The translations under genes and the position numbers were made by a program. A DNA stretch of 64,000 nt, from positions 1 to 64,000 of the forward strand of contig JABCRI010001048.1 in the NCBI GenBank assembly GCA_015143295.1, given 5' to 3'. Below the pieces are notes generated by a model that had not been told where the DNA came from, did no database searches, and saw nothing but the letters and a program-made list of their open reading frames with translations. Positions within the stretch are counted from its first letter, which is position 1. Each line of letters opens with the position of its first letter. Source of the DNA: Tetracentron sinense. Lineage: Eukaryota; Streptophyta; Magnoliopsida; Trochodendrales; Trochodendraceae. Shown here piece by piece: positions 9,481-61,432 of this stretch.

Positions 9481-9489
9481 CCAAAGGTA

Positions 9490-33835: not shown

Positions 33836-33839
33836 CCCT

Positions 33840-34995: not shown

Positions 34996-34998
<3 letters not shown>

Positions 34999-35029
<31 letters not shown>
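34999..35029. repeat. (TA)n microsatellite
   Basis: About 15 TA units followed by TTTTTTGGTTAG, possibly the tail of another minus-strand LINE tip. Confidence 0.85.
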
Positions 35030-35032
<3 letters not shown>

Positions 35033-35150
35033 TTGGTTAGAGTTTAGCTTTATATTTTTACTTTCCTATTAGTGTCCTTTGCTGAGACATACAAATCTTG
35101 GGACTTTGCAAGTCTTGAGACTAGTGCAACATCTTAATAAAATAAAATTT

Positions 35151-36525: not shown

Positions 36526-36599
36526 TTGAACCATAGTGAGATTTCTAGCCCCTCCCATTTTTCACGTGAATGTAAGTCTCAGTTTTGGTTGGTGAGACT

Positions 36600-37165: not shown

Positions 37166-37547
37166 AATACAGATAGGGCTGTACAGGGCTGCTTAACCTG
37201 TTGATCTCTTCCGTGTTAGCTAATCTCTTCCACATCAACAGCTGCTAATTAAAGGAGATATTATCTTTGTGAGAAAGAGATCAAGTTAATATGACTCTTG
37301 TTACTGATGGATTTTCTTCTCAGTTAGCATCATGGCCAGCTTCAAAAAGCTCTTCATACCATATGGGAGCAAATGGTTGTTTTGCGAATGGGACGATCTA
37401 ATCTTTAGCGTCATTAGTTGTTGCCGAAGATCTGATGAAAAGAGACACGACATGTGTTTATCTTAATTACTTGAGGAGTTTTGTGTATCATAGTTATCCA
37501 AGAATCTGCTATCAATTTGGACAAGTGAATTTCATAATTATACATCA
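37166..37547 (+). other. Intergenic with a coding-like remnant at 37311-37460
   Basis: The phrase translating as DGFSSQLASWPASKSSSY then HMGANGCFANGTI lies at about 37311-37410 with one TAA, then continues in frame. A weaker relative (GFSSNFSFNAFSKGTIDFSG) is at 32860-32920 and another near 6381. Probably an exon remnant of the same unknown parent gene as the promoter/exon module. Not recognised. Confidence 0.35.
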
Positions 37548-37552
37548 CATTC

Positions 37553-37972
37553 TGTTGAGATTTAAACCACGCGTTTAATCCCTAAACCCTTCGGATCTTG
37601 AGAGACTATGAATCACAGAAATCACATAACAAATAGAAAAATTACAGAGAAGAAAATAGAGACAAAACACACGGATATACGAGGTTCGGCAACGTGCCTA
37701 CGTCCTCGGGAGCCACACCAATTCACTATATTGAAGATACAGAATACACAGTTTTTTCTCTCTTCGAAAAAATTACAGCCACTTCTCACACTCGTTAAAC
37801 CTAAAAAATAAGCATACAGCTATATGTTTAGGGTTAAACTGTAAAGCCAAAAATACCCCTGCAGAAACGTAAAATATCGATTTTCGTCGTAATCTGGGCC
37901 GTTAGCAGGGGAGCGTTGCCCCCCCTGCCACCCCCCCGGGCAATCTGCTAAAGGTTGTCTACATTCCCAACA
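37553..37972 (-). mobile_element. Solo copia LTR
   Basis: A 420-bp minus-strand LTR, TGTTGGGAATG...CTCAACA, with a 5-bp target duplication CATTC on both sides (37548-37552, 37973-37977). It contains the typical U5 phrase CGAGGACGTAGGCACGTTGCCGAACCTCGT on the minus strand (in pieces: GACGTAGGCACG, GCCGAACCTCG) and a G-rich stretch near its start. No internal element sequence is present, so it formed by LTR-LTR recombination. Confidence 0.92.
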
Positions 37973-38439
37973 CATTCCATTGATAGAGTTTAATCCTCAC
38001 TAAGTTCCCAAAATTATTTGGACTGTTTTGGAGTTGCAGCATTGGAGATTTCTCAAAATCCGCAGCAATAGCTCTTCTGGATGACCTTTATACTTGGATT
38101 CGTTTTTCTCACCTACCTAAAATACCCATTACGAGATTTAGTGAAGGTTCAACACTGTTGAGGCTTCAGGCATCCTGGAAGATATGTATAAGCTTTGCCT
38201 TTCCTCATTGTCTCCTTCCACTGTTGTGTTCATTAATGGGAAGGTAACAAGATTGTAGCATGGTTTGGTAAAAATGACCCATATCTGTGCCAAAGTGAAT
38301 ATCATACAAGAAGATGTTTCTTACTTTGGTTTGATTTGAAGAATAGAAGCTTATTTTGTGACTACTCGATAGTCACAAGTGGGCATACCAGGAATTATTT
38401 GCTTTCTTCTTGTTGTCTGCTCATATTACTACTAATTGG

Positions 38440-39215
38440 ACCACCTGGTGGAGTAATCTTGATGCATGCATTGCAATCTTTATAGTTGGAAAGAAAATGA
38501 AATTATAATCCATAATTGGAAACAAAATTAAATTGAAATCTGCATCTTGTAAGCAAAATCAAATGGCATCTCTATTTGGAATGTGAATTAAATTCTTTGG
38601 CATTTGCCATTTAGAGTCCGTTCTTTTTCTGAGACTTATAAAGCTTGGCACTTTACACTTCGTCGTGACAGTTTCATAAAAAATTTAAGTCATTCTGTCA
38701 AGGTTTTAACAAGATTAATTCTTACCATCATGAGATTTAAAGTAATCATTTTCTATGAGAATTGAAATTATTCATTTTGCCGCATTTAAAGTCTTATGGG
38801 AATTGCAACCCAATAGATAAAAATCATTGATGCATCTAGTTCTCAAAAGAAAATGCATATATTCTCCATTGACAAAACTTGCAAAGTGCCTGACTTTGCA
38901 AGTCTCCCCGCAAAATAACCCACAACACATTGTGGTATTATAAATAGCCCTTCATGAGATTTCATCACCATGGAATATCCTCACAGCCCCAATATTTCTT
39001 TAGTGCTTTTGCCTTTTGCCTCTCTCTCTCTTTCTCTATATGTTTGATTCAATCCACATACCAATTGGAGATAGCAATATTGCTTTCTTAGGTAAAGCAA
39101 CAGTCCATGGAGAAGGATATCGGATTAGCGATCTACCAGACGTTACTAACTAGGAAGATGTGCTCATCATCTTAGATGGGCGGTCAATCTCATAGCAATA
39201 TGAGAAAGGGAGTTC
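38440..39215 (+). repeat. Promoter/exon module, copy 9
   Basis: Landmarks from GGTGGAGTAATCTTGATGC (38452) to GATGGGCGGTCAATCTCATAG (39175), with a TATA-like TATTATAAATAGCCC (38936) and GATATCGGATTAGCGATC (39117). It is split by an insert at about 38612-38928. The exon frame is broken by an insertion (ACTAACTAGG). Confidence 0.65.
38612..38928. mobile_element. MITE-like insert in module copy 9
   Basis: Interrupts the module between CATTTGCCATTTA and ACAACACATTG, which are adjacent in other copies. The ends carry related inverted phrases (GAGACTTATAAAGCTTGGCACTTTACA and, on minus, GAGACTTGCAAAGTCAGGCACTTTGCA; cited here by their shared GAGACTT and GGCACTTT words). Target duplication was not resolved. 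Confidence 0.5.
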
Positions 39216-40938: not shown

Positions 40939-41461
40939 TCAGATACCATTTGTGCGGCCAAGCATTGGAGAGCCAGGACAAATGCCCAAAGATGGGTTCG
41001 ATTTCAAATGATCCCTCGAGAGCTGCTCAGATACGCGATCGGCCAACACTGACTGTCCATACAGTTCCCTGGGATCCCCATGGGCAGGTCTTCCAAACTG
41101 CTGTCCAAGAAGATCGTTTCCGGATGATGTCAGCTCCCGGAAAATATGAGATCCTGGCTGCATCCCTCTAAAGAGGTCTGGCTTGGGGTCATGATAGGTG
41201 CTACCATTGGCGTAGAGATTGTTTGGGGATCTTGGCATGCTTCCAAAGGCTTCGTGCAAGTAAGCTGAATTATTCGGGTGATGAAACGGGATGGCACCAC
41301 TGCCACCAGTGAGAGGCGTGGATGGGCCAGAAGTGGTACGAGGGCTGGATATGGGAGAAGGAGACGTCCCCCCAGTCATATGTTGTGGTGATCTTGATTG
41401 TAGAAGAGGGCTTCCTATGGGAGAGACTGGACATGATATGTTCCTTGAAATATGGCCATCA
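40939..41461 (-). CDS. YDA: YODA-like gene, exon 11 (C-terminal tail)
   Basis: Starts in [20 protein letters not shown], then [20 protein letters not shown] and [10 protein letters not shown]; ends [12 protein letters not shown] with TGA. Arabidopsis YODA also ends shortly after a SPxxSPxALSGSSTPLTG block. An alternative donor (AATG|GTATCT) just before the stop could join a downstream exon, but the stop fits the family length. Confidence 0.92.
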
Positions 41462-44400
41462 CTGGAAGTCAGAATAATGAAATTAGAAGAATATTCAGCA
41501 GAATACATGGCCTTAAAACCTGGCTCACAACCAGCCCAAATTCACGCAGCTCAGGTGCTCAAATGAATAAAAAAATTGTTGCTGAAGATTAGATCAAAAC
41601 CAGCAGCCTTGCTGATTCGCTAAGCCCAACTAAGCTCAGGACCCAAAAGGTTAGTACCTAAGACTAAAAGGCATAAGCTTTCATGTTTAATATTCATCAA
41701 GGACAATGATGTCATAGCAACCAATCAAAAAAAAAGGACAATGATGTCATAGCACCGGTGGTAACTGGTGAGTTAACAAATTAACACCTACAATGTCAAC
41801 CATTAGATATGAATAATGATGTAACACCTTTATGATAACATAATCACCATATCCAACAGCCGGCATTAAGGTGACATTGCATTGACTTGCATCAACAAAC
41901 TTGACTGAATAAACTGGAAAACATATTATCACAGCAACCATGCACAACTTGTACACCTGATATCCAATAATCAACAGCTCATGCTGTTAACATCTAGACA
42001 TTTAAATTGATGTTGATCTTGCCACAGCTCAGTCCATGGTCTTTAACCCATAACAGACTGACGGTGTGTGTGTGTTCATCATACGGCACACAATAGAGAG
42101 AGAGAGAGAGAGACCTGGATGCTGGACCAGTTTTTGCACCTCTAGACTGATGAATTGCCAATCCTTCTGAGTCAAAGGAGGAAAGGTTCCGTGCATGTCC
42201 AATGCCCTGAAAGATTGTTTATGCACCATACCAACAATTAAACATACAAGGGAGGCCGCAAAAGCCACTACAAATTACACAGGCATAAGAAGGCACTTTG
42301 TTGAAGATCCATACAAGTACATCATAGACGAATAAAATATAAACGAAATGAATGGCCCAGCTGGTTGTTTAGACTCTTCTGTTTAGGCGGATACAGCAGT
42401 CCAATTTGAAAACACATTACAGCAACCCTGAATTTCAGAGTTGGTTATCAAAGTCCACACAAGATCTATCACTGAATCAGTAGACATGAATTTATCACCA
42501 AAAAAATGAACGGTTATCAATATATAAATATATAATTTTATACCGTTCATGTAGTGCATGAAAATGGTTTCGTCCACCAAGTCACAATTGCCCCTATAAA
42601 GATGTTAAAGATAGGGCAATTTTAGTAATTTTTCATATTTAAAGGAAAAGGTCAAAAACAAAGTCCTTCCGACGAATTTCAAGGCACCACTTCTTTTTCT
42701 TCCTTATTTTTTCTCCTTCCCTGTTTTTTATTGTTGGATAAGAAGGCTTGGGTGTTCCACTACAAGTGCTCACCGTTCTTCCCCATGACTCATTAACAGG
42801 GGCGGAGCCAGGATTTTCTAGTAGTGGGGGCACCGATGGTTGATTGAAAATGGTAGTAATTGTTAATGGATTTTGTGGAGGAAGATTAGGTGGGTACAAA
42901 ATATTCTGGGTCTAGGGGGATGGGGTTCGGAGCGTAGCCCCCCCAAAAAAATTGACAACTAAGTTCTTGGGCCGTTTCGTCCATACATTTTATACATATA
43001 TTATGAGTATTGTTTATCCTTGTTTACGAGACAGTTGTCCCCTTGCCTCATGGCTATCAGGCTATGCTCAGTTAAATAATTATATGAAATGGTATAAAAG
43101 ATGAATTTTGTTTTCAAAAGTATTTTGTTTTCAAAAGTATTTTGTTTTCAAAAGTTCAAGATACAGTTGCCCCACTGCCCCGAAGCTAAGCCATATTAAA
43201 TAATGAGAAATGTTTAACTTACCGCCGCATTTGACTATGTAGTCAATTGTGCGGTCATTATTGGTTTGTGCCCTCCTTTTTAACACCCATCAACTGTGGT
43301 TAAGATTCACTCACTCCTAAGATTAAGCATACTAACTTTAGTTTTAAAACAAACAAAAAAAATGAATAAAAATATTAACCTTAATGGGACCTAGTGATCA
43401 CCAGATTTCATCACCGTCTCGGAGGGTGGTCGGATTCTTACCTCTAAATAGGGGGCCAGCTGACCCTCCTTAAAAGTGTCCTATCCAATTTTCCAACCTA
43501 CTTCCTCTCCCTCCTCACTATCCCAATGTCGGTTGCCAAAAAATTGGAAGGCATACAAAGGCACTTTCTTTGGAACAAGAAAGTCGTGAAGCGCAAATAC
43601 CACATTGTCGATTGGCAAACTGTTGGCCTACCAATTGAACTGGGAGGTTTGAATGTTCACCCTCTCTCACTTTTCAACAAATCCCTTCTGGGCAAATGGT
43701 CGTGGCAATATGGAGCCGAGCGAGAGAGCCTTTGGAGGTAGGTTCTCGCATCCAAATACGGATTCCTTTCCATCTGGGAACCCCTAACTGTCTGTGGTCC
43801 CCATGGTATGGGTCTATGGAAAGGCATCATGTCAGGCTGGGAGTTTGTCTCTGCCAACATTAGCTTTCGAGTGGGTAGAGACAATGAAGTAAATTTCTAG
43901 ATGGACAAATGGTGCGGTAAATCCCCTCTTGTTATATTGCCCTTATGCCCACAAGGTTTAGAGCTATTTCCTATCTAATCTGGCATCAGTTGGGTGTTTC
44001 CCCCCTCCTTCTGGGACTTCTTATCATGTAAGTTCTCAGCGCGCTTGGGATTAAAGGGTTTTCAAGGGGGCGCTTTGATCATCGCCTCGGTAGCTTGGTC
44101 CCTCTAGATCAAACGGAACTCGAGGGTCTTCGAGAACTCTCCTTCCCCGGTCATTAGTACCAGCCTACGGGCAAGCCGCTTATTGTTGCACTGGTGCTCC
44201 AAACTGGAGAACTTTATTTAGCATGGTTGCTCTTTCTTTTGTAATAGCATAGCTTATTTCACTTGTACTACTCTCTAGAGTCTCTTTTAGTTGGGCCTGT
44301 GTTCACTCTCTGGTGATCCCTTGCCCCTCTTGTATTCTTTTTCATCATTATATATATATATATATATATATATATCACTATTACCAATCAAAAAAGCTTA

Positions 44401-47400
44401 ATCATAGTTAAAGGCATGTTAAAAGGGACACGTAGACACGACATTCGACTACATAGTCAAATGCATGGTGGGCTAATCACTACCCTTAAATAATACAGTA
44501 TACCTTTTTTAGGGGTCGGCTGCCCTCTTGTCCCATGATTATGCCCATTTAAATACTTAAACAACTTAACATAAAAAAAATAGGAGTCCGGATATTGTCC
44601 AATTGCAATTGAACTCTGACAGTTCAATCACACTCACATAGCCCACTTTTAACTCTAATTAAGAACTTTTAACCCTTAAGGATAATTTTTTTTCTGAAAA
44701 CAAATGTTAGATTGTTGAACCTTAAGGGTTGCTGAATCTTAACTATAGTTAATGGAGGTTAAAAAGGACACGTGTTGACTTGCGAGTGCGAATGAACCCA
44801 GGGAGAGTTCAATCGCAATTGAATATGATCCGGATCCCAACTCAAAAAAATCCCAAATTTTATGAGGACACCTACCCCATTCCCATAGCTATACCCTTCA
44901 AAAGTTCAGTGGGCCCCCACAAGCCCCCACCTAGCTTCACCCCTGCTCATTGCCAATCCAACTAGGGTTTTAGAAAAGGCAAAAAAAAAAAATTATAAAA
45001 ATTGATCCATGTAACTAGGTGGTGCAATGTTATTGGCAAGGATTAAAAATACGGTTTCGAGGGATGTATCGGTCCCAACCGAAACCTATACGTATCGCTT
45101 CGGTATCGGTTTCGGGCGACACATATAATTTTTTATTTTTCTTAAAAAAATAAAAACAAATCAAATTAATTTTTTTTTAAAAATCAAATGATTTAGAGGA
45201 ACCAAATATACTAAACATAAAGTCATGGGAAGCGACTCAAAGACAAAGTAGCAAACAAAATTATAATTCTACAATGAATTAAAACGTACATAACTAATAA
45301 ACGATACGTATCGCCCTTTTCGTATCAATATAAATATTGTATAGGGGGCTACTGATACCTATATGTATCGCCCGTTTCGTGTCGGTTTCAGCGATTTTAT
45401 TTCCATGGTTATTGGTGATGGATCAAAACTTCTCTAATACTTGATGCAGAGGATCCTAGTTTTCTTCTTATCATAATAGAGGAAAAAAAAAAAGTGAAAT
45501 TAGGGAATAAAAAATGAGGTGACAGTTTTCCTCTTATCCTAACAACAAAGAGAGAAAAATAGGGAATCAGAGAGATAAAATAGGCTCATTATCTCGCAAA
45601 TTATCAAAGATATCCTCAAATTCTAAAGAAACGAGGGGCAAAAGAGTCTAGGGTGGTGAATACATTTTCATGTTATATATACATACATAAGCAAGAGAGA
45701 GATTCACAAAGAGTGAACTGAGCTACAGAAAGAGGGCTACAATGAGAATTACACAAAAGAAAAGAAAGGGCCATAAAGAAAAGTAAACTCCCAAAGAAAC
45801 ATACACTCCCCTTAGGTGGGGAGCAAATGCTCCCCCCACCCAGAAGCTGGGCCCAATCGACACCCATTCTCCCAAAAGACGGCATGCTCGCCTAGTCACT
45901 CTTCCGTCCGATAATGAAGAGTCCTCAAAAATCCGTTTGTTCCGCTCCTTCCATATGGACCATGTGACCGCCCCTAGAATAAATTCCCAATAGTGTTCCA
46001 ACCGAGGGCCCAATAAGCCCGGTTGCCAGCAAGATAAGAAACTTTGGAAGAAGTACGGGCAAACCCTTGCAACTCCAAAATGGGCTAAAAAGAAGCTCCA
46101 GATGGTATACGCAAAAGGTCAGTGCAAAAGTAGATGATCTATAAATTCTTCCACTGCCAGGCACATCGCACATCTATTTGTGAGATTTCAGCCTCTACTT
46201 TGAAGATGATCAACTGTCAAGATTTTGCCCAGAAAAGCAGTCCATAGAAAAAAGCTCCTTGGATGACATTCCTAAATGTCACACCACTCTGCTATGGAAA
46301 GTGAAATGAGAAAAATCACTCCAAGCCCTCAAGAAGGAGCTAACAGTAAACCTACCTTTTTTATCCCTAGACCACACTCGAGAATCCCTAGAATTGAGAA
46401 TAGGTTCTACGGTTTCAAAACGCCCCAACAAGTTGATAAACGAGTTGACTTCCCAATCTTGCAATGGTCTCCGAAAATGGGGGACCCAGACTATGGTCCC
46501 GCCTCTGCTCTCAAAAGAGGAAGCCACCATCCCTTGTCAGTCTAGGGAAAGCAGATAGAGTGAGTGGAAGGCCTGTTTACAGTGTTAGAACTGCACCATA
46601 AATCATACCAAAATTTGACTTCTCCCTATTTCCAATGACAAATCTGATGTGGCGATCAAAATCCATCTTAGCCTTAAGGATTGCTCTCCATAGGCCCACC
46701 CTATAGGGATTGGTTGCCTCTTTGGGGTTCCATCTACTACTCTCCCTATATCTCACCACTATGACCTGTCGCCAAAAACCGTGACTTTATTCCCCAAATC
46801 TCCACAACCACATTCCCAACAGAGCGTAGTTAACGATTTTGAGGGGCCACAGGTTTAGCCCACCAAATGCCTTAGGACGACACACCAAGTCCCAACGCAC
46901 TAGATGATATTTCCTAGTATAAATCTTCTCAATCCACAGGAAGTCTCGTTGGATCTTTTCAATCCGAACAGCTACCGACGATGGGATGGGAAACAAGGAT
47001 AGATAATAAGTTGGGAGGCTACTGAGGGTACTTTTCAAAAGGTTTAGGCGTCCTCCTTTTGAAAGGAAACCAGTCTTCCACCCCTCTAATCTCTTGATGC
47101 ACCACTCAATCACCGGCTCCCACACGGACGTGGCTTTGAAAGGAGCCCCCAATGGAAGACCAATGAACTTAGTCGGGAGAGCACCGGATTTACACCCTAG
47201 GCACATAGCCAACTCCTCAAGATGGGGGGAACCTCTCCCATGGGCTATGGCGAAAATATGACTCATGGAAAAGTTTATCCGTAACCCAAATGTTGCCTCG
47301 AAATATTTGAACATGCTTTGAATGAGAAGAAGTTGGTGGGTGGATGCTCCACAGAAACAAGAGTGTCATCAGCAATTGAAGATGGGACAGGAGGACAGGG

Positions 47401-50400
47401 GGCCCTCCAATGTTAAAATCTTCCCAGACCGAAGATGAAGCTCTAACAATCATCTTACTGACAACCTCGATGACTATGACAAACAGGAAGGGGGAGAGAA
47501 GATCCCCATGGAGGAAACCATGGGAGCTCCGAAAAAAAACCATTTGGGGGGCCATTAACCAATACCGAGAAGGTAAAGGAGAAGTAACAGCATCGCATCC
47601 GGGACTGCCATTTGTCTCTAAAACCCAGACGCCTAAGCATGTAATCCAAAAAGACTAGCTCACATGATCGTAAGCTTTCTCTTTATCAATCTTGCAGATA
47701 ATGCTAGGATCGCCCTTTTTTAGCCTGTCATCCACCCCTTCATTGGCTATGAGGATTCCATCGACGATTTTCCACCCTTCAACGAGGGCACCTTGCTGTT
47801 AACTGCCTACCTATGGTGCATATGCATTGTGTAATAAATAATATGGAAAGTAACAACGAACAACGTAAGGAAAAGAAATAATTGCTTTATGAAGTTCTCA
47901 CCCGCTCAAACCTAGACATCAATTACATGTGTTCCCTATAAAGAAGTTGCAAGGATGTCAAAAGGTTGTTAGTGTGGCACAAATGGAGATGTATCAAACG
48001 GCAATGAGATTTTTCTCCACATAGGGAATTTCCAGTTATGTCAAGTCTTTTAACTACCAATGCTAACTCCACTCTTGATCATGACATTTTCAAACCTTGA
48101 GGCTTTCATTTGTACAAGTTTTCTGAAGTGAAATCTCTATTGTACTTCTACTTCATGTTTGATTATGTTGAAGTCTTAGGAGGTGCTCAGTTGCAAGGAA
48201 ACGGGAGGTATTTTAAGTACGCTCCTTTTTAGAGACACAACCCCTTAGTAGCCATCAAGGCTCCACCTTCTGCCAGCTAATGTTCACCAGGCAAGACAAA
48301 TAAAGAAACGTTGTCTTTGGACGCATTATCCTTGGTCAAATAGTGCATCATTGCATCCAGATAGCCTCTTATTGTTCTGAAGGCTTCTATAAGATACTAA
48401 GTTCTTTTGCACGATAACACAAAAAACAGTAGTTGACCTTCAAAAAAATCGTAAAAAGGAATCGACCGATTAGACATCAAAACATAAGAATTTCCTTGAA
48501 ACGAAACTGCTTTTAGAGTTTGCTTATTCCTCAATTTGTCAAGTCTGCAATCTTGGCTCTCACGAAAATCAGAAATGGATATGGTTTTGCAGATCACAAA
48601 CTGACTGAGCTCAACAATTCAAATGTTGAAAATTAATATAATTTTCAAGGGTTTTGGCGGGAAGTCCACTTTTTAAAATGACCTCAACATTTCAGAAGTT
48701 GAAAATCAATTTAATTTTATAGCTTTATTGATCAAAAAAAATTTTAATTTTATAGCTTTTGGGCAGGAAGTGTGCTTTTAAAATGACTAAAACCCCACTT
48801 TTTTTTGTGTTTGAAAATTTTTTTCCTCCCTTTTTATCAAGTTCTGCATCACCTAAATAAGAAACTTGAATAGAGTTACTAAAGGCACTCTTTCCCATAA
48901 GAGGTGTCATCTTGAGCACCCACCCACAAGTGTAGCACTCGTGCAAGGTACCACGTACAGAGTGTGGACACACATGAGTTCGGGTTACAATTTTATAGTT
49001 CAGGTTCAGGTGCGGGAAAGGGCTTGGGCACAATGGCACTTTATCCACACTATACACTTTGTATATGCGCATAACCGCAGAGTCGCAATGGGGTCACCCA
49101 TTATTTACTTTCCCTAGAGACGTCCATCGAGTTAATGGTCCCAATCGTCTGCCCATTTGTGGCCACATGACCCAGTGGCAATCCAATGGGCTTGGTGGGT
49201 TGGTTGATCTCTCATAGGAGATCAGTTGTTGATTAGGGTTGATCAGGAGCTTCTCATCAAGGTGATTTGATGTAGATTAAGGACATTTAGGATTGATCTC
49301 AATCACCAAAGCCCAAGGAAGGCCACCCGACCAGACCAAGGAGGTTCTCAACTAAGGCCTATAAGCCTTTATGAGCCCCCTTATAAAAGGAGGGCCCAAA
49401 TTAGGCCCAATACGGGTAGCCGGCCAGCCTATTAGCTATATTAGTCTTTTATTTTTTGTATTACTAGTTGATGAGTTAGAATATTGGTAGGATTTGTTTC
49501 CAACTTTATTAGAGTCCTAGAATTGGTTCGGAGTATTTTTAATTAGGAAATTGAGTTAAATTAGGATTTTAAAAGATATTCTTTTGTTTATAAAATCTAG
49601 AGAACCATAGCTTTCGGGATTAGTGAAGTGTTTTTTAAGAAACTTTAATAAGAGGATCTTATTACATTTAAAAGTTGTCGATACTGAATTTAGAGATTTT
49701 ATTTTTTTTACCAGTAAGCAATCATATTTTATATATAAGAAACGAGAATACAGCAGTTAAATATTGGAACAGAGATTGATTGATTTGACACAAATAACCC
49801 TATAGATTATTCTCTAAGGCTGTCGCACCATCTGAACTAATCCTTCATATTGCTTTTGATCTTCAATTGATTCATATTTGGTTTAATCCTTGAAATCCAT
49901 TACTGAAATTAGGGTTTGTTCTCTAGAATTGAACCTTGCTATCATTCTTTTTAAGGATTGATCTAACCTGGTTCTAAATTTTGTTCTAGTCATGCATCAG
50001 AGACAAAAACATACCCTAAGAATCAATTTCGGATACCAACCTCCAGTTGGAAAACCCTAATTTGGTTACTTGGGTAAATTTGGGACTTTCTTAAATTTCT
50101 ACTAAGATCCGAAGATTGTTCATAACTGCTGTAGGAATTTTAATTAGTGGACTTGATCTGACCTGGGTATTCGTTCAACTTGAGTCTCTGATCTGAATAT
50201 ACAGTCTTTTTGAAAATTTTCAGATTCGTCCCTGAACTTTCGAAACCCTAATTGACTGACCTAGACACCTTGGATTGTCCTAAAACTTTATATAGAAGTA
50301 TTCTAGATTCTGATTGAGATGTTATCTGTGGATCGGAATTGTCAAATTACCAAAATACTCCTCTGTCTGAAATTCTTTATATGGGAATTTTGATAATTAG

Positions 50401-53400
50401 GTTTGATATCTTGAGTTATTCAAGACTGCACTTCCGCATTGCATCATGATTCCTCAATTAATCTCCAGAACTATTTCTAATCCAGCTTGTAGTTGCTTGG
50501 GTCTTTCCCTGTTCCTAACAGGGCTTATTATCTTGCTAGCATTCAGCCTCACCAAGTTTCCAGTTGGATATACTCTGGGCTCTCCTTCTAAGGACTATCT
50601 CTTGGTCCATCTAGAAAGAGAGTAACAAGCGCATTTTTTAGGATTCCTCAATGTCCATGAAAAAGTTAGACAACGGACTCAAGAACTATTGTTAGATTGG
50701 GCCTCAATCAAGGACGACTATGTGAAGTCGGAGGTTTCAAATCTCATTGTCTAACTATGGGTTGTGCTCATTGAGAAAGGGAGTACGGAATAGATTTAGT
50801 ATGATTATTGATATGTTCATTGGTTTCTTTTTTTGGTTCACTATTTATGAATCTATGCTCTGTTTGTTGTGCTCTTTTTCTTCTACTAATTCTGCTTACC
50901 GATAACAAAAAGGAATGTGGACACAGTTCAGTGAACCCAATAGGTTCAGAAGACCGGACCAATGAGCAAACCTCTCCCAAGTCCACCAGTTCAGTGAACA
51001 AGCCTATCAAGGTCATGGATCAAAATATCGATACGTATCGGGTTTAAAGCTACCCAATATATAGATACGCAGAAATTAAAAAAAAAAAAAAAAAACTCCC
51101 TTAATCGATTGCGTATCGGTTCATGCGTATTGGCCTGATACACATAGCATAAACCTAATACCCAATCGATACGGTCCCTTTCTCTTTCCATTTACACTAT
51201 AACCTTTTACAGCTTATTTACATATAACATCATTTAAGTAAATAGTTTTAAACTTTACTTTCAATTACTAAAGATAATTATATGTAAATAAGATTATACT
51301 TCCATTTGAATTCAACAAAAGTTATCCTAAATCTAAATTCCTAAAAATGAAAAGGTCAACTTTCCACTTCAAGAATCAAATCCTCATTTTAAGAATTAGC
51401 TCAAAATTTCAAATTTCAAAAGCTAAGGTATTTCTCAAATCTTAAAATTTTATAAATTCTACTATATCAAAACATTACTAAAACTCAAAAGTTCGGTAAA
51501 AAAGTCTCATATTTTAGTCTTTAAAAATATTTTCATCTACAACATCAAAAAATTAACTAATAGTTTCGTAAAAAATACTTACAGTCAAGCTTTACGAAAA
51601 CAAAATTCTAAGCATATGTTGGGTACCCCCCATTTAAATTCCAAAAGAATCAAAATCTAAATTTCTAGTTTAATGCTAATGTAGAGTCCCGGAAATTATT
51701 TCATGTTATTACTTTGATTATTAGGGGTATAATGGTCAAGGGTATGTTATTATGTGTATATATTTATAGCTAACAGCGGATTTAAAAAGTGAAAAAACAG
51801 AACCTATGATCGATCGCACTAAACCCAGAAATTTGGGAAAACTTATGTTTCATTTGCGATCCATTTCAACTAAGTACGATCGATTGCAAGGTAAGCTACG
51901 ATTGATCGCACTGTTCGAGCGATCGATCGTAGTCGGGTTCAGGATTTTCTTAAAGATTTACGGAAACTAGGGTTAGGGTTTTAAACTTCCGAGCAGGATG
52001 CACAGGCGTCCGATGACGTTGTGCAGGGAGTACGTTTACTTGTGAATTATTTTAAGTAGATATTTCCATGATTGTCTAATAATTGAAATGGCTGTCATTA
52101 TTGTCATGATGTGTATATGATGGTTGTTGTGCACATGATTGACACACTTAGTTATGTATCCAATTCAAGAACCCTATTAATAAATGACTGTCTAGTTTCG
52201 CACAAGCCTCCCCTTCAAACCAAGTTTGTTAGAGCGTAAATTATCCATCGCCACTCCAGTTGGCCATTCAGCCATCACCGACAAGGTCTATTGCACTTGT
52301 GATATTCGGGTGGGACAGAGAGAGATGCCAACCAATCTGATTGTCCTCGAATTCTAGGACTTCGATGTCATACTAGGCATGGATTGGCTCTCCGCTTACC
52401 ATGGCCACGCCGATTGCTTCGGGAAGATGGTTAACTTCAAGTCAATCAATGGACCTCCTTTCCATTTCCAGGGATTGAGAGAGAGAGATCTAGCTCGATT
52501 TGCAGCCTTGTGTATTTCCACACCGCAAGTGCCAAACTCTTTGAATATCTCAGTGGTAAATGAATTTCTAGATATCTTCCCTGAATAGTTACCGAGCTTA
52601 CCACCTGATAGAGAGATAGAGTTTGCTATTGACTTAGCTTCGGGCACGGCACCCCATCTCTAAAGCGCCGTATAGAATGGCTCTAGGAGAGTTGAAAGAG
52701 CTTAAAAAGCTGATCCAAGAATTGCTCGAAAATGGGTTTATCCGCCCAGGTGTCACCTTAAGGAGCCCTGGTGTTATTCATGAAGAAGAAAGATGGTTCA
52801 ATAAGGATATGCATCGACTATCAGCAATTGAACAAGGTCACTATCAAGAACAAGTATCATTTGCCTAAGATCGATGACCTATTCGATCAGTTGCAAGGAG
52901 CGAAGTATTTCTCCAAGATCGAAATAAGGTCGGACTACCATCAGTTGATGATAAAAGCTGAGGATGTGCCTAAGTTATGTCTTTTGGTCTAACTAATGCG
53001 TCGGTGGCCTTCATTGATCTCATGAATAGGATCTTCAAGCCGACCCTTAACCGATTTAAATTGCTCAAATGAGAAGAAGAAAGCTTGGAGATCACTCCTC
53101 AAGCCTTCTTGGAGCATTTTGGATCGATGGAAACGATCCCTAAGGTCGATATACCCTCTAACTCAGCCCTATTAAGATGTTTTGTATGTTATAGAAAGAT
53201 AGAAATGAAGATATAGATATGTTCTCATGTTTATACAAGAATTAGGGATATTGGAATATGAAATGTGAATTTTATATGCATTTGTCGGTTTTATTAATCA
53301 TGTTTTGACTATTATGGAAATGTTATTAAATACTATGAATGTGATGAATGAAGGATGGGAAATACTATGGAGGAAGGGTTGAATGTATGGCTATGGTTTA

Positions 53401-56400
53401 TGGATGATGTGTGTGGAGAATGGACTAAAAGTATGGAGGAGATGGTGAATTATGGGCAAATGGCGAAATGAATAGAGTAATTGAAGTGAATTGTGTTGTT
53501 ATTATCTATGTCTCGGAAAAATGAATAAATATGATATGGAATTAATATGATTATCGTGTTAAAATATGCCCTACCTACCTTGTACTGTGATCAGTATTTA
53601 GGTAGGCCAAAACCTAGATGAAGTCTTCCAGTTCGGGAATTCTCTAACCAAGTAGATGTACCTTGATAGAGTTTCTTGGCGGAGGATCAGAATCTAAGGG
53701 ATCACCCATTCGAATTCCAATCACGACACTTAAGCACATTTCCACATGTATGGTAAGAAGTAAGGTCCACAGATTCACACATCTCACGAGATCATGCATT
53801 GAACACAGACATGCCACGTATTATGCTATGAAATAATATGCCCCCTGGTTACGAACATACCACCCTATGCGTTGCCGCGATTTGTTGCAAAAATATGAAT
53901 TATACGTTGATGGGACAAAACACTATGAATTATGCGTTGACGGGACAAACACACTATAAATCATGCATTTATAGGATAAGTTGATTATCATAGGCACGTA
54001 TGAGTTATGCATATGTTTCGCACAGGGATATGTTTAAGAGGCACACAAGTACATGAGTCAAGATGATGATATGATATGCTCACATGTTTCCGCACTCTGA
54101 TTATGTCAATATTATATGAAACCGTTATTGCTATGTAAATATAAGATAAAGTATGATATTGATACTGTACAGGTTATGCTATGTTGTTAGTTGGGCTGTA
54201 TATACGCTGAGTGTTTTTAATACTCAGTCGACCTATTATTGTCGGCAGGTATAGAGCACGAGTACACTGCGGAGCCGTGGGTCGAGGAGACATACATCGA
54301 AGAGGGAGAAGAAGGTGAGCTTCCTGACGAGGGAGTCAAGGATCTTGATAGTTATCCCTATTATTAGATTATGATTTGTTTGAAGGAGAAAGATTGCAAT
54401 AGACGTTGATACTTCAGGTGATGTTACTTATGTTCATACTTGGTTTAGGTTTTGGGTTACCCAAATATATGGTGAGTTATGTTTATATTGGTCATAGACT
54501 TGTTCAAGATGGTTTAGTTTATATATACCAAACTTTATTACTGTCATTTTTAGAGACTTGTGTTAGGATGCCTTGTATGTATGTGATTTAAGCAGATTTA
54601 AGAAATGTGATGGCCTAAAGTCCCATTATGACTAAGGTGAGGTTTGGTGTCGTTACAGCTAAATTCGGTCTCTAGCCTTCCAAATTGCAAGGCTTTTTTT
54701 TCAAATCTTAAGGGCTCATAATTTTTAATATTTCAAAACATTATTAAAACAAAAAAACCGATAAAATTATTTCACACATTGGCTTCTATATGATGTTGGG
54801 TCACTACACGCTCAATCCCAAGCAACGAGTGACATTTATGAACAAATTTCACAACTCTCGGATTTACATCAGACGTACATCATATGTACCACATACCACG
54901 TGCACATGAATTGGCCACATTGTTTTCAGTATGTCTGGCTCACTTATAATATATCAATTTATTTAGTTCTTGAGCCCACGCCGTTCAAGTTGACACGAAG
55001 ATCAATGTGGTACTTAACTTGTATCATGTAAGTAATTTACTTTATGGTTGTAAGTCAATACTTTCTTATTTAATTCTTTGAATTTAAGGTTTTAATATCT
55101 AGATTGTATTGCATATATTTGGCCAAGTGACTATTATTTGTGTTTTCATACTTATTTATCAGCATGACCGTTTTTTTTTCAAGTTTTAACATATAAATTT
55201 TTTTATCTCTCACATGTGTAGTTATAAATGTAATTAAGGGTCTTCATTTAGTTTTTTTTTAGCTTATATTTGCATTAAAAAAGATTTTACGAAAGGTATC
55301 TAAGTTTTTCCTTACGTATCCAAGTGTTTTTTAACGTATCTTAAATTTTTCCGTGTATCCAATCAATACGCCGATATGTATCCTAAAATCGACTTATCGA
55401 TACTACCGAGTTTTTGAACCATGATCAAGGTCCACTTATCCCAGCCAAGACCGAGACGACAGTTGCAAACCTATTCAGGCTATTCTAGGTCGATACAAGT
55501 CTCTAACCAATCCGGTCCAAAGAAACCTCTTCTCTTTCTCAAACTAGAACTACCACTTCCAGTGGATTCTAAGACCATTCCAATCAGACCAATCCCTTAA
55601 TAATCCATCTAGACTGTTGATTTAGCTGTCGTTTTGTTCAGATTATTTCAAATATAATTGATTACACGATTAGCATTGTCATGAATAAGCGTTATTGTGA
55701 ATAAGTGCGATCGTGAATAATCCTGTTTGGATTAGCACTCTTATTGATAAGCGATTATCTGGTCATTTGAAACAAAAGATATGGATATTTTGGGAAATCT
55801 CTCTATTTTGGTCATTTTGAAAAAAGAGGAATATATTAGGAAATCTCTCTCTATCTCTCTCAAGCTTAAGGAATATTGTAGGCCTCATGGGGGTGCAAAA
55901 TTAGGTACTTGTAATAATCCTCACATAATCCTAAAAGTGCATAAGTTATTAGAACCATATTAATTAATTAATAATGTACGTTGAGATAATTATTAGAACC
56001 ATATTAATTAATTAAGAATTTCAACAGGATCCTGATTTTAAACTACTCAGCAATAGTTCTTAGTACACATTCCCGGTATAAATAAAGCATGCCATGCTAA
56101 TAATGGATTATGTTCATTCTGCAAATTAAAGGAGCAATATGGTAACCCTTTTCAGTGGGGTAAGCTGGACCCGAATAGGCGAATACATGCTTCTTGGCTG
56201 CTTGGCAGTATGTCAACAAATTGAGCTACGGGCTGAAGCCTATAGGCTTGTTGCGTTGGCAACTGTATCCAAGTACACATGCAAAGTGACTAGTATACCA
56301 GTTCCCAATATCCAATTAACATGGATTTCATTATTGATATAACCAAAAAACAACTAATGGACTTACAAGCAATTTGATGACATAACATGACATAAATTGG

Positions 56401-59400
56401 ATACAAGAGAGACACAAAAGAATAGGATAGACAGTGAAGAGAGGTACCAGAGAGCTAACTCCATTGGTAAATCCAGATAGTGGTTCTGAAGGATCAGAAC
56501 CCAGAAAGGGTCTTTCTAATGGTGCAGCAGTTTTGACAATGGGTGCTCCAACAGCTGAACAGCCGTAGGACGATGTAGTGGATTGCGTTGCAAACACTGC
56601 CTTACAAAATCTTTGCCATCATCTGAGAGATGATCAGGGACTGCTGGAAATTCCTTACTATTCCCAATCTTAACATGGCAGCAATCTTTTGACCAGAACA
56701 TGCAAAACACCAACAAATTTAGAAAAAAGAACAGGTCAAGCATAAGCACTCTTGATGAGATACATAAGAAACAACAAGGTCAACTTATGATCATACACAT
56801 GATTAAGAAAAATATTGCCAATCTTGCAGTCTCAGTGCCCAAATTACTGACCCCTTCATATTGGCTCCAAGGTGGTTTTGATGTAGCCATCTCCAAAACT
56901 GTGCAGCCAAGACTCCATATATCAACGGCAAGATTGCAACCATTTGAATTCTTAATAACCTGGAAGAAAAATGCAAGTGAGAGATACTACATTGCTACTG
57001 GAAAGCATGTCATGAACAAAGATATAAGGGTATGACAGGAGAAAAATTATGACCTCGGGTGCCATCCAGTAAGGACTTCCCTTAAATGACAATGGACCTG
57101 ATTGCCCAGTGATCTGCAAATATGAAGCATGTACATAGATTTGACATAAATCAGGTTACCAATAGGAAACTTCTAATCTTAAGAACACAGCATTAACAGA
57201 TACTTGTGTATGCACCATAATTTCAAGCGCCCCATTTAACACTTCCTTTGAGCATGCACTCAACCACTAGAATAGGCTAATTAGCATTTAAACTAGATGA
57301 GCAAACTTTTATATGGTACCTATATTGATTAAAAAGTACGAGATGTTGGAATATATTCGGAAACCAACCAGTATCGCACCCAAAGTTGTGAAGTCCTGTT
57401 GCTTGTTTTAATTCCTAGTTTCTCATGCGCTGGTTGGTATTCATTTGGTTTGACTACATTTCAGGAAAAACAAAATCCATATGCATTCGCTTACATGTTT
57501 TGCCATCCCAAAATCTGCCAACTTCACACGCCCATTAGGGTCTACAAGTATATTTGCTCCTTTAATATCCCTGTACAAATAACGCAGTTATAAATGGTAT
57601 ACCTTGGATTACAAATCAATAGTTAATGCTAATTTGGGTCACCTGTGCACAGTATTCTTAGCATGCAAATATGCAAGCCCTGACAGGATTTGTTGAGTAT
57701 AACTACGAATTACTAGTTCACCAAACTGCCCATAGTCTTGAAGAAGCTTATAGATGGAGCCACCAGATACATACTCCAAGTAAATATAAAGTTTATCATC
57801 TACCTGTTCAAGGAATATAAATTCAGAGAAAAACATTAATATCATTTGAAGCCTTAACTGTCATTTAGTATTACTTTAAATCCAAGGAAATTCTCAAAGT
57901 GCAACACTACCATATACCACTCATATCATTATGCATTTACAGAAGTTAAGTATTCAAACTTTTAGTTCCCAGAAGTTCTTACATCTTGTGATCCATGCTA
58001 CAAGTAAAAGTATAACTTTTTTTTATCGATAACCATGAGGATATATTAATCAAAAGAATAACAAAGGTACATAAAAACAAAGTTTACAAGAGTGAAAACC
58101 CAAGACAAAAAAAAAAAAACCAAAAACACATGACGAAACCCCCTATGATGGAAAAGAGGAGCCTAAGCTTAGCAAAATTCATCCCAAAATAGCTCCAAGA
58201 TCCACCTCATCCTTCCAAATGGAGACCCACTCTAATACTAGAAATCGAATACGTAAGCAAATCTAAGTCGGAGAAGATGGAGAGTCCTCGAATACTCTCT
58301 TGTTTCACTCCTTCAAAATTGACCACGAGATGGCTCCAGGGAAAACCAACCAAATAGTAGTTTGCTCCATACTTACCAGAGACCAACACGATAAAAGTTC
58401 TAAAAGGAAGAAGTGAAGACCCAATCGGCAATCCACACCTACTCAGGATAGAAAATACCCCTGGATCACACTCACTATAGGACAATGCAAAAGCAAGTGA
58501 TCCATCGTCTCTTCTGCTTGAAGGCACAAAAAAAGTGGTTTGTCATCCTCCACCCTCTACTTTTTAAGGGATCACAAGTAAGAATCTAGTTTAAAGATGC
58601 ATTCCAAAGGAAGAAAAATACGATGCCTGGATTCCCCACAAGTCTATGAGGAAATGATACGTAAGGTGTTAACCCAAATGATTGTAGCAGAGATCTCACT
58701 GATAATCGACTATCGTTGCCTTTAAACCAAATTCTATGATCCCTGACCATTGGGGAGAAGATCCTAAACGTAATAGGAGGCAACCCAAATCATTGATTTC
58801 CCAATCATGACTCAAAATCGGACACCACGCCACCCCCTCCTCACGAAACTCTAAATAGTACCACAACTTCTTAGTAGCCTTAGTAGAATGAGACAATAAT
58901 CATAACAAGTAAACTTTTTCAGAATGCCAAAACCATGAAATAGAATGACACCACGCTTTTTGAAATAAATTATCAACATTGAAAAACCAAGGTCTTAAGT
59001 AGAAAGTAAAATACACCAAACTGAACTAAGGAATAGGACACAAAGATTACCGTCTCAGATCCATAATACTGCACTATATTTTGATGCCGCAAGCGACTTA
59101 ATAGAGAAATTTCCTGTCAGAATAAACACTAAAAAGTAAGAAATCTCTATTAAAGAAACAAAATAGTTACAGTACAACAAATTGAAAAATCAATATTGCA
59201 AAACACAATATTCATCCTTTAGATAATTAACTTCCCCATAAATCAACTAGAGAAACAACTTACTTGCCCCAACTGTTTTGCACTTTCCTTTGACTTTGCA
59301 TCATCTGAAAATAGTGTAACCTCCTTCATTGCACACATTTCACCACTTTCACTAAAACCAAAGGAACAGATTAGAAACAGAAATGCACAAACTTAATGAG

Positions 59401-61163
59401 AGATAATTGACTAATAATAATGATTTCTTGAAGAATCACGGACATATGTAATCAATCACAATAGCCGCAACTGTTTTGACTTTTGGGATGTTTCTTTAGG
59501 CCGTGACTTCAGAAATACAGACAAATCAGACTAGCAGTAATGCTCATGTGCATTGTACTCATGAAAAAGTTATTAATTTCATTCTCAACTACTTAGCTCA
59601 GCAACAAGGCTAAAAATGCAAGAAAACGCAACACTATAATCTTACATGCAAGGCTGAGAAAAGATTATAATACTAAGATGAGAAACCGAAAGGGGAATTC
59701 AGCTCCATACAATACAGACCTGTTAAAACCAACATAAACGTGTCCAAATGTGCCTCTACCAAGCATCCTTCCCTTTTTCCAACGTGAACCAGGGCTTGTC
59801 GGAGTCTCTGCCCTTCCAGGGCTTCGTGGGACTGAGGAAGATGTTGCTGCTGAATTTGTGGAAGAAAAAGGAGAAGAATTAGAAATGGTTAAAGGGGGAA
59901 GAGGCAACCGGTGGCTTTGTTGTTTCCCATCATCAGGCCAGCTTGTCGGCAATTCTGTAGCTGCCCCTCCAGCTCGCGGATGCATGGGGGTGACAGCACC
60001 ACTATGGATTCTGGAGCTGGAGTCAGGGCTTGTCATTCTGGGGCTAGGTATTGGAGAACACTCCGGACTACCCCTGCTGGGCTGCCAAAATAACTGCCCT
60101 GACATATCTCCTCCCATTGAATTATGTCCTGAATTAGGACCTGAACCTGGACTGGAGCAGTGGCCAGATCCAAGTAAAGCAACATCTGGATAAGGCTTTC
60201 CTGCCCAAAAAGCAGAAGCTGTAACTTGCTCAGGACCAAATGCCCTCATCGGACTTCTAGAAGGACTTGATATCGAGCTGTCTGGAGCACTGCAGAAAGC
60301 ACTATGATGAGGAATCTGCAAATTTGGCACATAAGTGCTTAAGGGTCTCCGTTTGGGCGATGTAGAGAGAATTTGATTGCTGAACAAATGATTAGCAGGT
60401 GTTAGTGCCTCTCTCGAGTTTTTCCGGGTGACAATAGGGAACTGATCCTTGTGCATCATGCTTCAACAAAGTTAGAGATAAATTTGTTAGGGATGGATAA
60501 AACTCAAAAGTTAACCATGGAAAAAAAATAATTATAAATCAGCACAGGACCATATCATGTCCAACAAAAGATCCTAGAATGAAACATCACGGTTTTTTAT
60601 GAGTTCGCATGAAAACTCACCTGGTAGGGCTGTTTGCCGCAGTTCTGGATCCATTTTCAGAGTCAGTTGCATGGGAGCTAAGATGGCGCGAGTCTGCTGG
60701 ATCATCACTATCAATGGAACTATCACTAGAAATAGAAGCAGTGGCCAAATCTCCATCAACATCTGGCTTATTCGGGACATGTTCAGGTTTTGGGAGAGGC
60801 AGAAATAATGTCTTGGACCCTTTTCCAAGCCTGGTTTGTTGATATACAGATTCCAGAATTTGTACGACCTATGCTAGCAGGATGCACCCCAGGAAGTGGA
60901 AGTGGTTGAGCAAGAGAGCTTTCTGCAAAACTTTGGCACCGCGATACTCGTGTGGAGGGCGATGGTGATGGTGACACTGCTCGGGATCGAGATCCCTTTT
61001 CTGAAACTATATCACTACAATGTCTTCGAGATCCTCCTAATCTACTGTCGCACTTTTCTTCAGATGGACTCTTAAATTTTCGGTGTAACGTTTCAATAAA
61101 ACTTTCCCTGTTCACTTTCTTTTTTACTTCTTTGGATGAAGACTTTCCCCACCATGAAGGCAT
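40939..61163 (-). CDS. YDA: YODA-type MAP kinase kinase kinase, 11 exons; frame broken by four 1-base losses
   Basis: MEKK-type Ser/Thr kinase at the top of a MAPK cascade, acting at the plasma membrane/cytosol; in Arabidopsis it phosphorylates MKK4/5 upstream of MPK3/6 in stomatal and embryo patterning. Exons: 61163-60621, 60460-59720, 59351-59264, 59113-59051, 57803-57643, 57570-57495, 57113-57054, 56959-56852, 56685-56448, 42206-42115, 41461-40939. The N-terminus [12 protein letters not shown] and [16 protein letters not shown] match YODA. The kinase has a P-loop [17 protein letters not shown] lysine, HRDIKGAN, DFG in ADFGMAKH, and WMAPE. The C-terminal tail ([23 protein letters not shown]) ends GRTNGI. 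Single A losses at the runs 60821-60824, 60835-60837, 56672-56673 and 56538-56539 shift the frame; with them counted, the length is 898 residues (883 in Arabidopsis). Everything else is intact, so sequencing error is as likely as decay. Confidence 0.9.
41720..41735 (+). mobile_element. Micro-insertion of a LINE 3' tip with 19-bp target duplication
   Basis: ACCAATC plus nine A (16 bases) lies between exact copies of GGACAATGATGTCATAGCA (41701-41719, 41736-41754). The same tip, TTACCAATCAAAAAA, ends the LINE at 44397. It is inside intron 10 of the kinase gene. Confidence 0.82.
42115..42206 (-). CDS. YDA: YODA-like gene, exon 10
   Basis: 92 bases: [20 protein letters not shown] then [10 protein letters not shown]; matches the tail of YODA (GHARSL..LDSE). 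The donor lies directly against a CT microsatellite (CAG|GTCTCTCTCT). Acceptor CTTTCAG|GGC. Confidence 0.88.
43205..44485. mobile_element. Hairpin-ended MITE family, member E, carrying a LINE
   Basis: Exact 9-bp duplication TTAAATAAT (43196-43204, 44486-44494). Inverted ends of about 65 bases: left GAGAAATGTTTAACTTACC, right (minus) GGGTAGTGATTAGCCCACC, both followed by a near-palindromic hairpin GCATTTGACTA/TAGTCAAATGC. Core TTAAGATTCACTCACTCC and AAAAGGGACACGT. A LINE fragment of about 1 kb sits in the centre. Confidence 0.85.
43410..44397 (+). mobile_element. 5'-truncated LINE (RT C-terminus) in intron 9
   Basis: [19 protein letters not shown] then [20 protein letters not shown] (about 43450-43585), [13 protein letters not shown] and [19 protein letters not shown], the C-terminal part of plant L1 ORF2. 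Stops at 43740 and 43900. Ends with (TA)n 44348-44375 and CACTATTACCAATCAAAAAA. Sense orientation is opposite to the host gene. Confidence 0.85.
44583..44838. mobile_element. Hairpin-ended MITE family, member F
   Basis: Inverted ends GGAGTCCGGATATTGTCCA / (minus) GGGATCCGGATCATATTCA followed by CAATTGCAATTGAACTCT-type hairpins. The core is on the minus strand: CACGTGTCCTTTTTAACC and TTAACTATAGTTAAGATTCA. The target duplication is obscured by A-runs. Lies 98 bases from member E. Confidence 0.72.
45037..45407. mobile_element. hAT-like MITE with CGATACGTATCG-type words
   Basis: A 371-bp element, exact 8-bp duplication GTTATTGG (45029-45036, 45408-45415); ends CAAGGATTAAAAATACG and (minus) CATGGAAATAAAATCG. 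The interior has TACGTATCGC and GGTATCGGTTTCGG. Related to the ends of the larger element at 51014. Confidence 0.82.
45650..47800 (-). mobile_element. 5'-truncated LINE (RT to ORF2 end) in intron 9
   Basis: Same orientation as the gene. Blocks on the minus strand: [20 protein letters not shown] (about 47797), [11 protein letters not shown] (about 47685), [13 protein letters not shown] (about 47645), [16 protein letters not shown] (about 47500), [11 protein letters not shown] (about 47170), [20 protein letters not shown] (about 47070), a zinc-finger-like [16 protein letters not shown] region (about 46410), and [15 protein letters not shown] (about 45965). Frames break several times. The FADD-type catalytic block is missing. 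Ends near TATATATACATACATA (45674). Confidence 0.88.
47830..51000. other. Intron 9 sequence without recognised genes; possible LTR-like region
   Basis: 48600-48790 holds a diverged tandem repeat (GTTGAAAAT.AAT.TAATTTT...GGAAGT..). 49380-49400 has TTATAAAAGGAGGGCCC, a promoter-like box that could belong to an old LTR. 49705-49775 starts TTTTTTTACCAGTAAGCAATC, like a minus-strand LINE tip. None could be delimited. Confidence 0.4.
48727..48742 (+). mobile_element. Micro-insertion of a LINE 3' tip with 17-bp target duplication
   Basis: ATTGATC plus eight A and a T (16 bases) between exact copies of TTTAATTTTATAGCTTT (48710-48726, 48743-48759). An ordinary tandem duplication would not bring the A-run. 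Intron 9. Confidence 0.75.
51808..51937. repeat. Cluster of GATCGATCG palindromes in the gypsy LTR
   Basis: Four occurrences of GATCGATCGC, ACGATCGATTGC, ACGATTGATCGC and GCGATCGATCGT in 130 bases of the gypsy left LTR. Purpose unknown; possibly part of the promoter region of this family. Confidence 0.8.
52240..52590 (+). pseudogene. gypsy protease fragment
   Basis: Reads (with one stop) [16 protein letters not shown] (about 52255-52300), then [19 protein letters not shown] (about 52360-52415), the end of a gypsy retropepsin. It continues to [11 protein letters not shown] and a TAG at 52586. Confidence 0.8.
52600..53160 (+). pseudogene. gypsy reverse transcriptase fragment
   Basis: [19 protein letters not shown] (about 52690-52745), [20 protein letters not shown] (about 52780-52840) and [23 protein letters not shown] (about 52880-52950, key blocks LFDQLQGA and KIEIRS). 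[18 protein letters not shown] follows at about 52990. A deletion removes the YVDD region. Two frameshifts. Confidence 0.85.
54249..54367 (+). other. Short acidic open frame within the gypsy right LTR region
   Basis: Thirty-nine codons rich in E and D ([20 protein letters not shown], then [19 protein letters not shown]) before a TAG, with no ATG at its start. Probably a relic of exonised or captured sequence, or chance; not recognised. Confidence 0.3.
55432..56447. other. Remainder of intron 9, no gene recognised
   Basis: AT-rich, with ATTAGAACCATATTAATTAATTAA repeated twice (about 55949-55975 and 55992-56018). Ends at the exon 9 donor. Confidence 0.5.
56448..56685 (-). CDS. YDA: YODA-like gene, exon 9 (end of kinase domain, two frame losses)
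   Basis: Encodes IAAM, then [40 protein letters not shown] and TAAPLERP in three different frames. A base is missing from a T-run (A on plus) at 56672-56673 (expected F-K after IAAM) and another at 56538-56539 (expected F-V after HP). With both counted the exon is 240 bases and phase 0-0. It closes the kinase domain (arginine of the CLQRNPxxRPT block). Donor CTG|GTACCT opens a 14-kb intron. Confidence 0.9.
56852..56959 (-). CDS. YDA: YODA-like gene, exon 8
   Basis: 36 codons, [20 protein letters not shown] onward to PPWSQYEG; the kinase F-helix region. Donor GGG|GTCAGT. Confidence 0.95.
57054..57113 (-). CDS. YDA: YODA-like gene, exon 7
   Basis: Twenty codons [20 protein letters not shown]: activation segment and APE motif. 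Acceptor TTGCAG|ATC; the donor GAG|GTCATA is weak beyond GT. Confidence 0.92.
57495..57570 (-). CDS. YDA: YODA-like gene, exon 6
   Basis: Encodes [20 protein letters not shown] then GMAKH: the catalytic aspartate, KGAN and the DFG magnesium-binding motif. Donor CAT|GTAAGC. Confidence 0.95.
57643..57803 (-). CDS. YDA: YODA-like gene, exon 5
   Basis: Starts [20 protein letters not shown] and ends [10 protein letters not shown], up to the catalytic loop. 161 bases; donor CACAG|GTGACC. Confidence 0.95.
58018..58910 (-). mobile_element. 5'-truncated LINE in intron 4 of the YODA-like gene
   Basis: Minus strand. [20 protein letters not shown] then [15 protein letters not shown] (about 58720-58585) is the zinc-finger-like C-terminal region of L1 ORF2. 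The tail TTAATATATCCTCATGG...TTATCGATAAAAAAAA is a typical plant L1 end. Frames are broken. Target duplication unclear (ACAAGTAAA near both ends). Confidence 0.8.
59051..59113 (-). CDS. YDA: YODA-like gene, exon 4
   Basis: 21 codons: [20 protein letters not shown] plus T, including the alpha-C region. The downstream intron (59050-57804) hosts a LINE fragment. Confidence 0.95.
59264..59351 (-). CDS. YDA: YODA-like gene, exon 3
   Basis: Encodes [18 protein letters not shown] and onward to KQLGQ, with the ATP-anchoring lysine of CAMK. 88 bases, phase 2 to 0. Donor CAA|GTAAGT. Confidence 0.95.
59720..60460 (-). CDS. YDA: YODA-like gene, exon 2 (Ser/Pro-rich region to kinase P-loop)
   Basis: 741 bases, open throughout. 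Contains [49 protein letters not shown] and [22 protein letters not shown]. Acceptor TTGAAG|C and donor AACAG|GTCTGT. The open frame beyond the donor is intron. The many SP sites are plausible phosphorylation sites. Confidence 0.95.
60621..61163 (-). CDS. YDA: YODA-like gene, exon 1 (N-terminal regulatory region, two frame losses)
   Basis: Starts [19 protein letters not shown] basic, serine-rich regulatory N-terminus; the YODA N-terminus restrains kinase activity in Arabidopsis. The frame is good to [11 protein letters not shown], then shifts; the homologous text resumes in another frame as [19 protein letters not shown]. Two one-base losses, at A-runs 60835-60837 and 60821-60824 (T on plus), reconcile all three frames and give phase 2 at the donor (AG|GTGAGT). 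Confidence 0.9.
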
Positions 61164-61432
61164 GTTTTAATTATAACAAATTTACAGAAATGACAGGCAA
61201 GTCTTTATAACTTAATCCACTCCCTTCTTACAAGTACAAAATTATCCAAAAAAGCCCATAGACAAAGTCAGTAAATAGGCTTGCAACTCATAGGCATGCT
61301 TCAGATGAAGTGCAATTCCTTTGCCAAACAATGACTTTCTCAACAGAAAGGACATCTTTAAATGGCACCACCTATCAATTTTAGGATGTCAAGCAAAGTA
61401 TGAGAGTAGTTCAGAAAGGAACGCAATATAAC
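61164..61432 (-). other. Probable 5' untranslated exon of the YODA-like gene
   Basis: On the minus strand a good acceptor (TTTTGTACAG|GT at 61433) lies 269 bases before the ATG with no better one between. Sequence up to the ATG has no in-frame start that would replace it. Inference. Confidence 0.4.

Follow-up and report, generated by a model that had tools for sequence, protein, structure and literature searches.

The window, the whole 64,000-nucleotide stretch analysed here, carries on its minus strand a predicted YODA-type kinase gene that runs from 61163 to 40939 in 11 exons. It comprises bases 1–64000, the left end, of an unplaced contig of 307,625 bp (hereafter C278) in an assembly of Tetracentron sinense totalling 1,161,278,568 bases in 1479 contigs. 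Lengths of the large contigs fall from 64.6 Mb (C1) to 33.7 Mb (C23), and C24 has 27.6 Mb or more; the available text on the published genome gives 24 chromosomes measuring 65 to 33 Mb and a total of 1.17 Gb (PMC7709256).

Read on the minus strand, all ten introns of the kinase gene (10/10) begin with GT and end with AG. We read the borders of exons 1–9 directly and took exons 10 and 11 from alignment to two homoeologues on contigs C22 and C21, which share the same phases. Exon 1 (60621..61163, 543 nt) opens with an ATG at 61163 and ends at a gtgagt donor, but its frame is offset by two bases. Exon 2 (59720..60460, 741 nt), of equal length in C22 and C21, encodes a Ser/Pro-rich region and the start of the kinase domain. 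Exons 3 (59264..59351), 4 (59051..59113) and 6 (57495..57570) were placed by their GT-AG borders and by comparison with C22 and C21. The kinase domain continues through exon 5 (57643..57803), exon 7 (57054..57113), which encodes GSPYWMAPE, and exon 8 (56852..56959), and it ends in exon 9 (56448..56685), which has 238 nt here and 240 in both C22 and C21. Alignment to the homoeologues places exon 10 at 42115..42206 and exon 11, with the stop codon, at 40939..41461. An earlier note on this DNA had proposed an eleven-exon gene with working junctions and phases, which we can confirm, and had put it at 56448..61163, which holds for exons 1–9; the last two exons lie 14 kb beyond that interval. The exons sum to 2693 nt, and four further bases bring them to 2697 nt, or 899 codons including the stop, the total at which the note had also arrived. 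As it had likewise found, no substitution creates a stop: there is none outside the lesions in the 884 codons of the C278 gene that could be aligned (of 904, 19 were dropped for gaps and the final stop was excluded).

Intron 9 (42207–56447), 14.2 kb long here, measures 6.2 kb in C22 and 2.1 kb in C21. In C278 it contains a frame (46787–47365) that by eye resembles a LINE reverse transcriptase and has no Pfam match. Elsewhere in the window, 2005–11123 and 33594–39098 hold repeated units of some 65–300 bp, 60–97% alike and mostly spaced 2–5 kb apart within a cluster. Between 26835 and 31573 lies a copia-like element whose frames are broken by stops and frame changes and whose 186-bp terminal repeats are 98.4% identical (3 mismatches, no gap). 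We considered such repeat pairs as a gauge of sequencing error, but this pair and another of 191 bp (8 mismatches, 1 gap) are too short for the purpose.

Several lines of evidence bear on the family of the gene. When six gene pieces from the window were searched against Pfam, exon 5 gave a Pkinase match above the cut-off, while those of exon 8 and of one piece of exon 9 fell below it; exons 2 and 7 and the final piece of exon 9 gave none. A PDB search with the kinase domain of the C21 homoeologue returned MAP3K2 (9p6a) first (E 8.9e-66); this match and that of exon 5 identify the domain as MEKK-type. The motif G(T/S)Px(W/Y/F)MAPEV, which we take to be the signature of the MEKK subfamily, is present as ten residues spanning exons 7 and 8. 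The N- and C-terminal extensions align to Arabidopsis YODA (AtYDA, MAPKKK4) by tblastn (E 1e-32 and 6e-27), in a comparison made with a provisional AtYDA sequence and with YODA rather than MAPKKK3 or MAPKKK5. An MPxWW N-terminus, a Ser/Pro-rich region, the kinase domain and a Ser/Pro-rich C-terminus follow one another in the same order in both proteins. Identity amounts to 54%, 45% and 68% in three blocks at the N-terminus, reaches 95% in exon 7 and is 42% in a C-terminal block; the remaining kinase exons were aligned across introns and hence carry no clean identity figure. Unlike Arabidopsis YODA, the assembled Tetracentron frame is broken at four places, and its intron 9 spans 14.2 kb. Judged by its sequence, then, the gene is predicted to encode a YODA-type MAP3K of the MEKK subfamily. 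YODA acts in stomatal and embryo patterning, a role that is putative for the Tetracentron gene. The word YODA is absent from the available text of the Tetracentron genome paper (PMC7709256), and none of the papers listed for YODA concerns Tetracentron by its title, within a partial coverage of the literature that does not imply absence in print.

In the assembled sequence, the frame is disabled by four one-base losses, seen by comparison with the homoeologues. At the first (60835..60837), C278 has AAA and both C22 and C21 have AAAA, so that the base missing is at 60837. The third (56672..56673) and fourth (56538..56539) are runs of TT in C278 that read TTT in C22, C21 and two partial copies on contigs C23 and C1434, with the missing bases at 56673 and 56539. 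These three agree with the single-base losses from A or T runs that the earlier note had listed. Its remaining one, at 60821–60824, certainly shifts the frame, but the exact base is ambiguous: the loss falls in or just after the AAAA run (60816..60824), adjoins an in-frame 3-base difference, and may have taken either an A from the run or a C slightly further along. Because exons 1 and 9 each carry two losses, both miss the phases of their sisters by two bases. Adding back a pair of bases restores exon 9 to the 240 nt of C22 and C21, and exon 1 (543 nt in C278, 554 in C22 and 557 in C21) to the remainder of 2 common to both sisters, as had been proposed. A single one-base gain in exon 1, in place of its two losses, could be rejected, since the stretch between its two sites is in the sisters' frame.

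Both full-length homoeologues (C22:27961963-27950543 and C21:6597002-6606975) share exon order, phases and intronic sequence with the C278 gene but, unlike it, read open. In C22 this holds only with a shifted exon 11 acceptor, because a 15-base deletion (C22:27951047 region) removed the usual one; an in-frame AG slightly further along could serve instead. Synonymous distances are 0.28 (C278–C22), 0.38 (C278–C21) and 0.37 (C22–C21). According to the available text of the genome paper, two whole-genome duplications took place 82 and 59 million years ago, at a substitution rate of 3.25e-9 (PMC7709256). The synonymous distances expected for these events are about 0.53 and 0.38. We infer that the YODA copies arose by whole-genome duplication, although the value of 0.28 lies below both expectations and the assignment of copies to events is therefore loose.

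A P450 gene, which we take to be CYP86-like, and a BTB gene lie upstream of the kinase on C278, and the order is the same on C21; the counterpart block on C22 has the BTB gene and, of the P450 gene, a remnant of 50 bases. From this shared order, complete in C21 and partial in C22, C278 looks like a third homoeologous block rather than a chimaera. The earlier note had suggested looking for a second intact copy in the assembly. A genome search with two stretches of the kinase gene (59700–61200 and 56300–57900 of the window) returned no near-identical one, the best other matches being fragments at 90%. The C22-type gene also has two partial, decayed copies, at C23:33579020-33581982 and C1434:305067-308495, each sharing about 97% identity with C22; being decayed and only about 97–98% identical, they are not alleles of each other. 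Pieces of YODA exon 2 cluster at C5:14.23-14.38 Mb, with further fragments at C15:14.29 Mb and C18:19.93 Mb, and a 0.9-kb piece covering exons 5–7 occurs twice on C7 (30.68 and 27.60 Mb), 89–90% identical to the window. These scattered fragments have the look of copies made by transposition or tandem duplication.

The four disabling offsets of the assembly, the redundancy offered by two other full-length copies and the decayed fragments elsewhere in the genome would agree with a real and very recent pseudogene, in which one YODA homoeologue lost its frame while the other two carry the function. We examined the C278 branch for decay, estimating branch dN/dS over the 884 codons (255 in the kinase domain) by the Nei–Gojobori method with Jukes–Cantor correction. 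Relaxed selection was not seen on this branch: dN/dS was 0.24 (0.17–0.36) for C278, 0.30 for C22 and 0.25 for C21, and in the kinase domain 0.064, 0.109 and 0.122, respectively. Purifying selection continued over the C278 branch at a level like that of the open sisters. Decay of YODA is visible when present: private changes in the C23 and C1434 fragments together number 22 nonsynonymous, 2 nonsense and 4 synonymous, compared with 4 nonsynonymous and 2 synonymous in C22.

The kinds of lesion also speak against a pseudogene. Non-coding sequence around the three copies has 35 one-base deletions per 1147 private substitutions. At this neutral ratio, four losses would be accompanied by about 131 substitutions and 4.2 nonsense changes, and none of the latter was seen (P=0.016). 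The C278 kinase likewise has no splice-site lesion, all its junctions being intact, and no longer indel; if the share of one-base deletions among neutral disabling lesions is raised to the fourth power, the chance that four such lesions would all be one-base losses comes to 0.003–0.009. From selection, the share of the branch that could have evolved neutrally has an upper bound of about 12%, which corresponds to 1.4 expected one-base deletions. The probability of four or more is then 0.055, so this bound alone is not decisive against a real pseudogene.

C278 itself provides a measure of how often bases are lost, because part of it is present a second time on C1. C278:115500-117000 matches C1:26432987-26434488 over 1502 bases with 2 mismatches and one base more in C1, and C278 126008-130015 and 130016-132012 match within C1:26443500-26449500 (4001 and 2000 bases). 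Identity in the overlap is 99.7% or more. Over the 7503 C1 bases compared, C278 lacks a single base six times and C1 once, each of the six C278 losses falling in a run of 2–5 A or T; there are also 4 mismatches in all and, at a C tract, a difference of 8 bases. The six C278 sites are 116319, 128825, 130521, 130795, 131320 and 131337. The 6:1 direction is not significant by itself (P=0.125). The ratio of one-base indels to mismatches is 7:4, whereas sequence that has evolved here gives 51:1147 (Fisher p about 1e-7; deletions and substitutions of the reference were counted in non-coding sequence, insertions over the whole aligned region). The C278/C1 differences are thus mostly errors rather than alleles. 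One of the six losses breaks a BTB/beta-propeller gene, which C1 preserves as an intact frame of 487 aa and whose lost base is also kept in C22 and C21. On C278 the gene is split into two frames that overlap, one of 229 and one of 265 aa. Each matches part of the Pfam At2g24240 beta-propeller model, the 229-aa frame below the cut-off and together with a BTB domain.

The resulting loss rate for C278 is 0.80 per kb (95% CI 0.29–1.74), which predicts 2.2 losses (0.8–4.7) in the 2693 nt of the kinase, where 4 are seen (P=0.17). Since the search returned no second copy of the two kinase stretches, this rate comes from 7.5 kb elsewhere on C278 rather than from the window. Speaking against an error reading, C278 has no excess of one-base non-coding deletions near the gene (7, where C22 has 8 and C21 has 20), and its conserved runs are shortened in 0/19 non-coding and 3/60 coding cases. 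The seven non-coding deletions are compatible with the C1-based rate (P 0.16–0.29) and fit less well with a uniform rate derived from the kinase (P 0.05–0.11). Also against that reading, the P450 frame on C278 (1665 bp) is open, with a probability of 0.26 of having no loss at all; frames of 441 and 290 aa, possibly partial, are open as well. An NCBIfam search returned only P450 matches, all below the cut-off.

Losses of the same class elsewhere on C278, together with the dN/dS values and the absence of any other disabling lesion, support the earlier note's suggestion of uncorrected long-read base calls and leave the recent pseudogene improbable. That C278 is instead an allele with real losses whose intact counterpart was left unassembled is the least probable reading of all: the heterozygosity of 0.22% given in the available text of the genome paper (PMC7709256) and the partial redundancy of C278 with C1 at 99.8%, as expected of an unpurged haplotig, would agree with it, but a 7:4 excess of one-base indels over mismatches in 7.5 kb does not resemble allelic variation, and the search with the two kinase stretches returned no near-identical second copy.

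We conclude, with a probability of roughly 0.87, that the four losses are errors remaining in the consensus of C278, a contig that is unplaced, poorly finished and partly redundant within a PacBio assembly. Bases would have been dropped from short homopolymers during consensus on C278 and left there after polishing, and raw reads would be expected to show full-length runs at the four sites. Sequencing used PacBio Sequel long reads, polished with Arrow and repeatedly with Pilon using short reads, as the available text describes (PMC7709256); the Illumina data of the sequenced individual amount to 82 G of 150-bp pairs. This polishing counts against the error reading, and the losses would be residual errors in one contig rather than the mark of an unpolished assembly. 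The pattern resembles the homopolymer errors of long-read assemblies described in the accessible part of PMC8812927, in which the lengths of short runs are wrong and the remaining sequence is fine, except that those genomes are bacterial and the present case is a plant contig with mainly losses. A second published Tetracentron assembly is smaller (908 versus 1170 Mb, from the available text of PMC8810787), and unpurged overlap such as that between C278 and C1 may bear on this difference.

An assembly artefact is therefore well supported, and the gene is otherwise ordinary and conserved. It is doubtful that the losses are real and very recent and that an endangered relict tree is in the course of losing one of three YODA homoeologues; if it were, the loss of a duplicated stomatal-patterning kinase would have been caught at its very start. 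For work on other genomes, the case cautions that a gene called as lost on an unplaced contig of a long-read plant assembly can reflect an artefact, and it offers a check that needs no reads, in which an error rate from redundant contig overlap is combined with branch dN/dS as an indicator of decay. Most likely, the tree carries an intact YODA-type MAP3K at this locus as one of at least three full-length copies, which would put the YODA count for Tetracentron at three or more rather than two.
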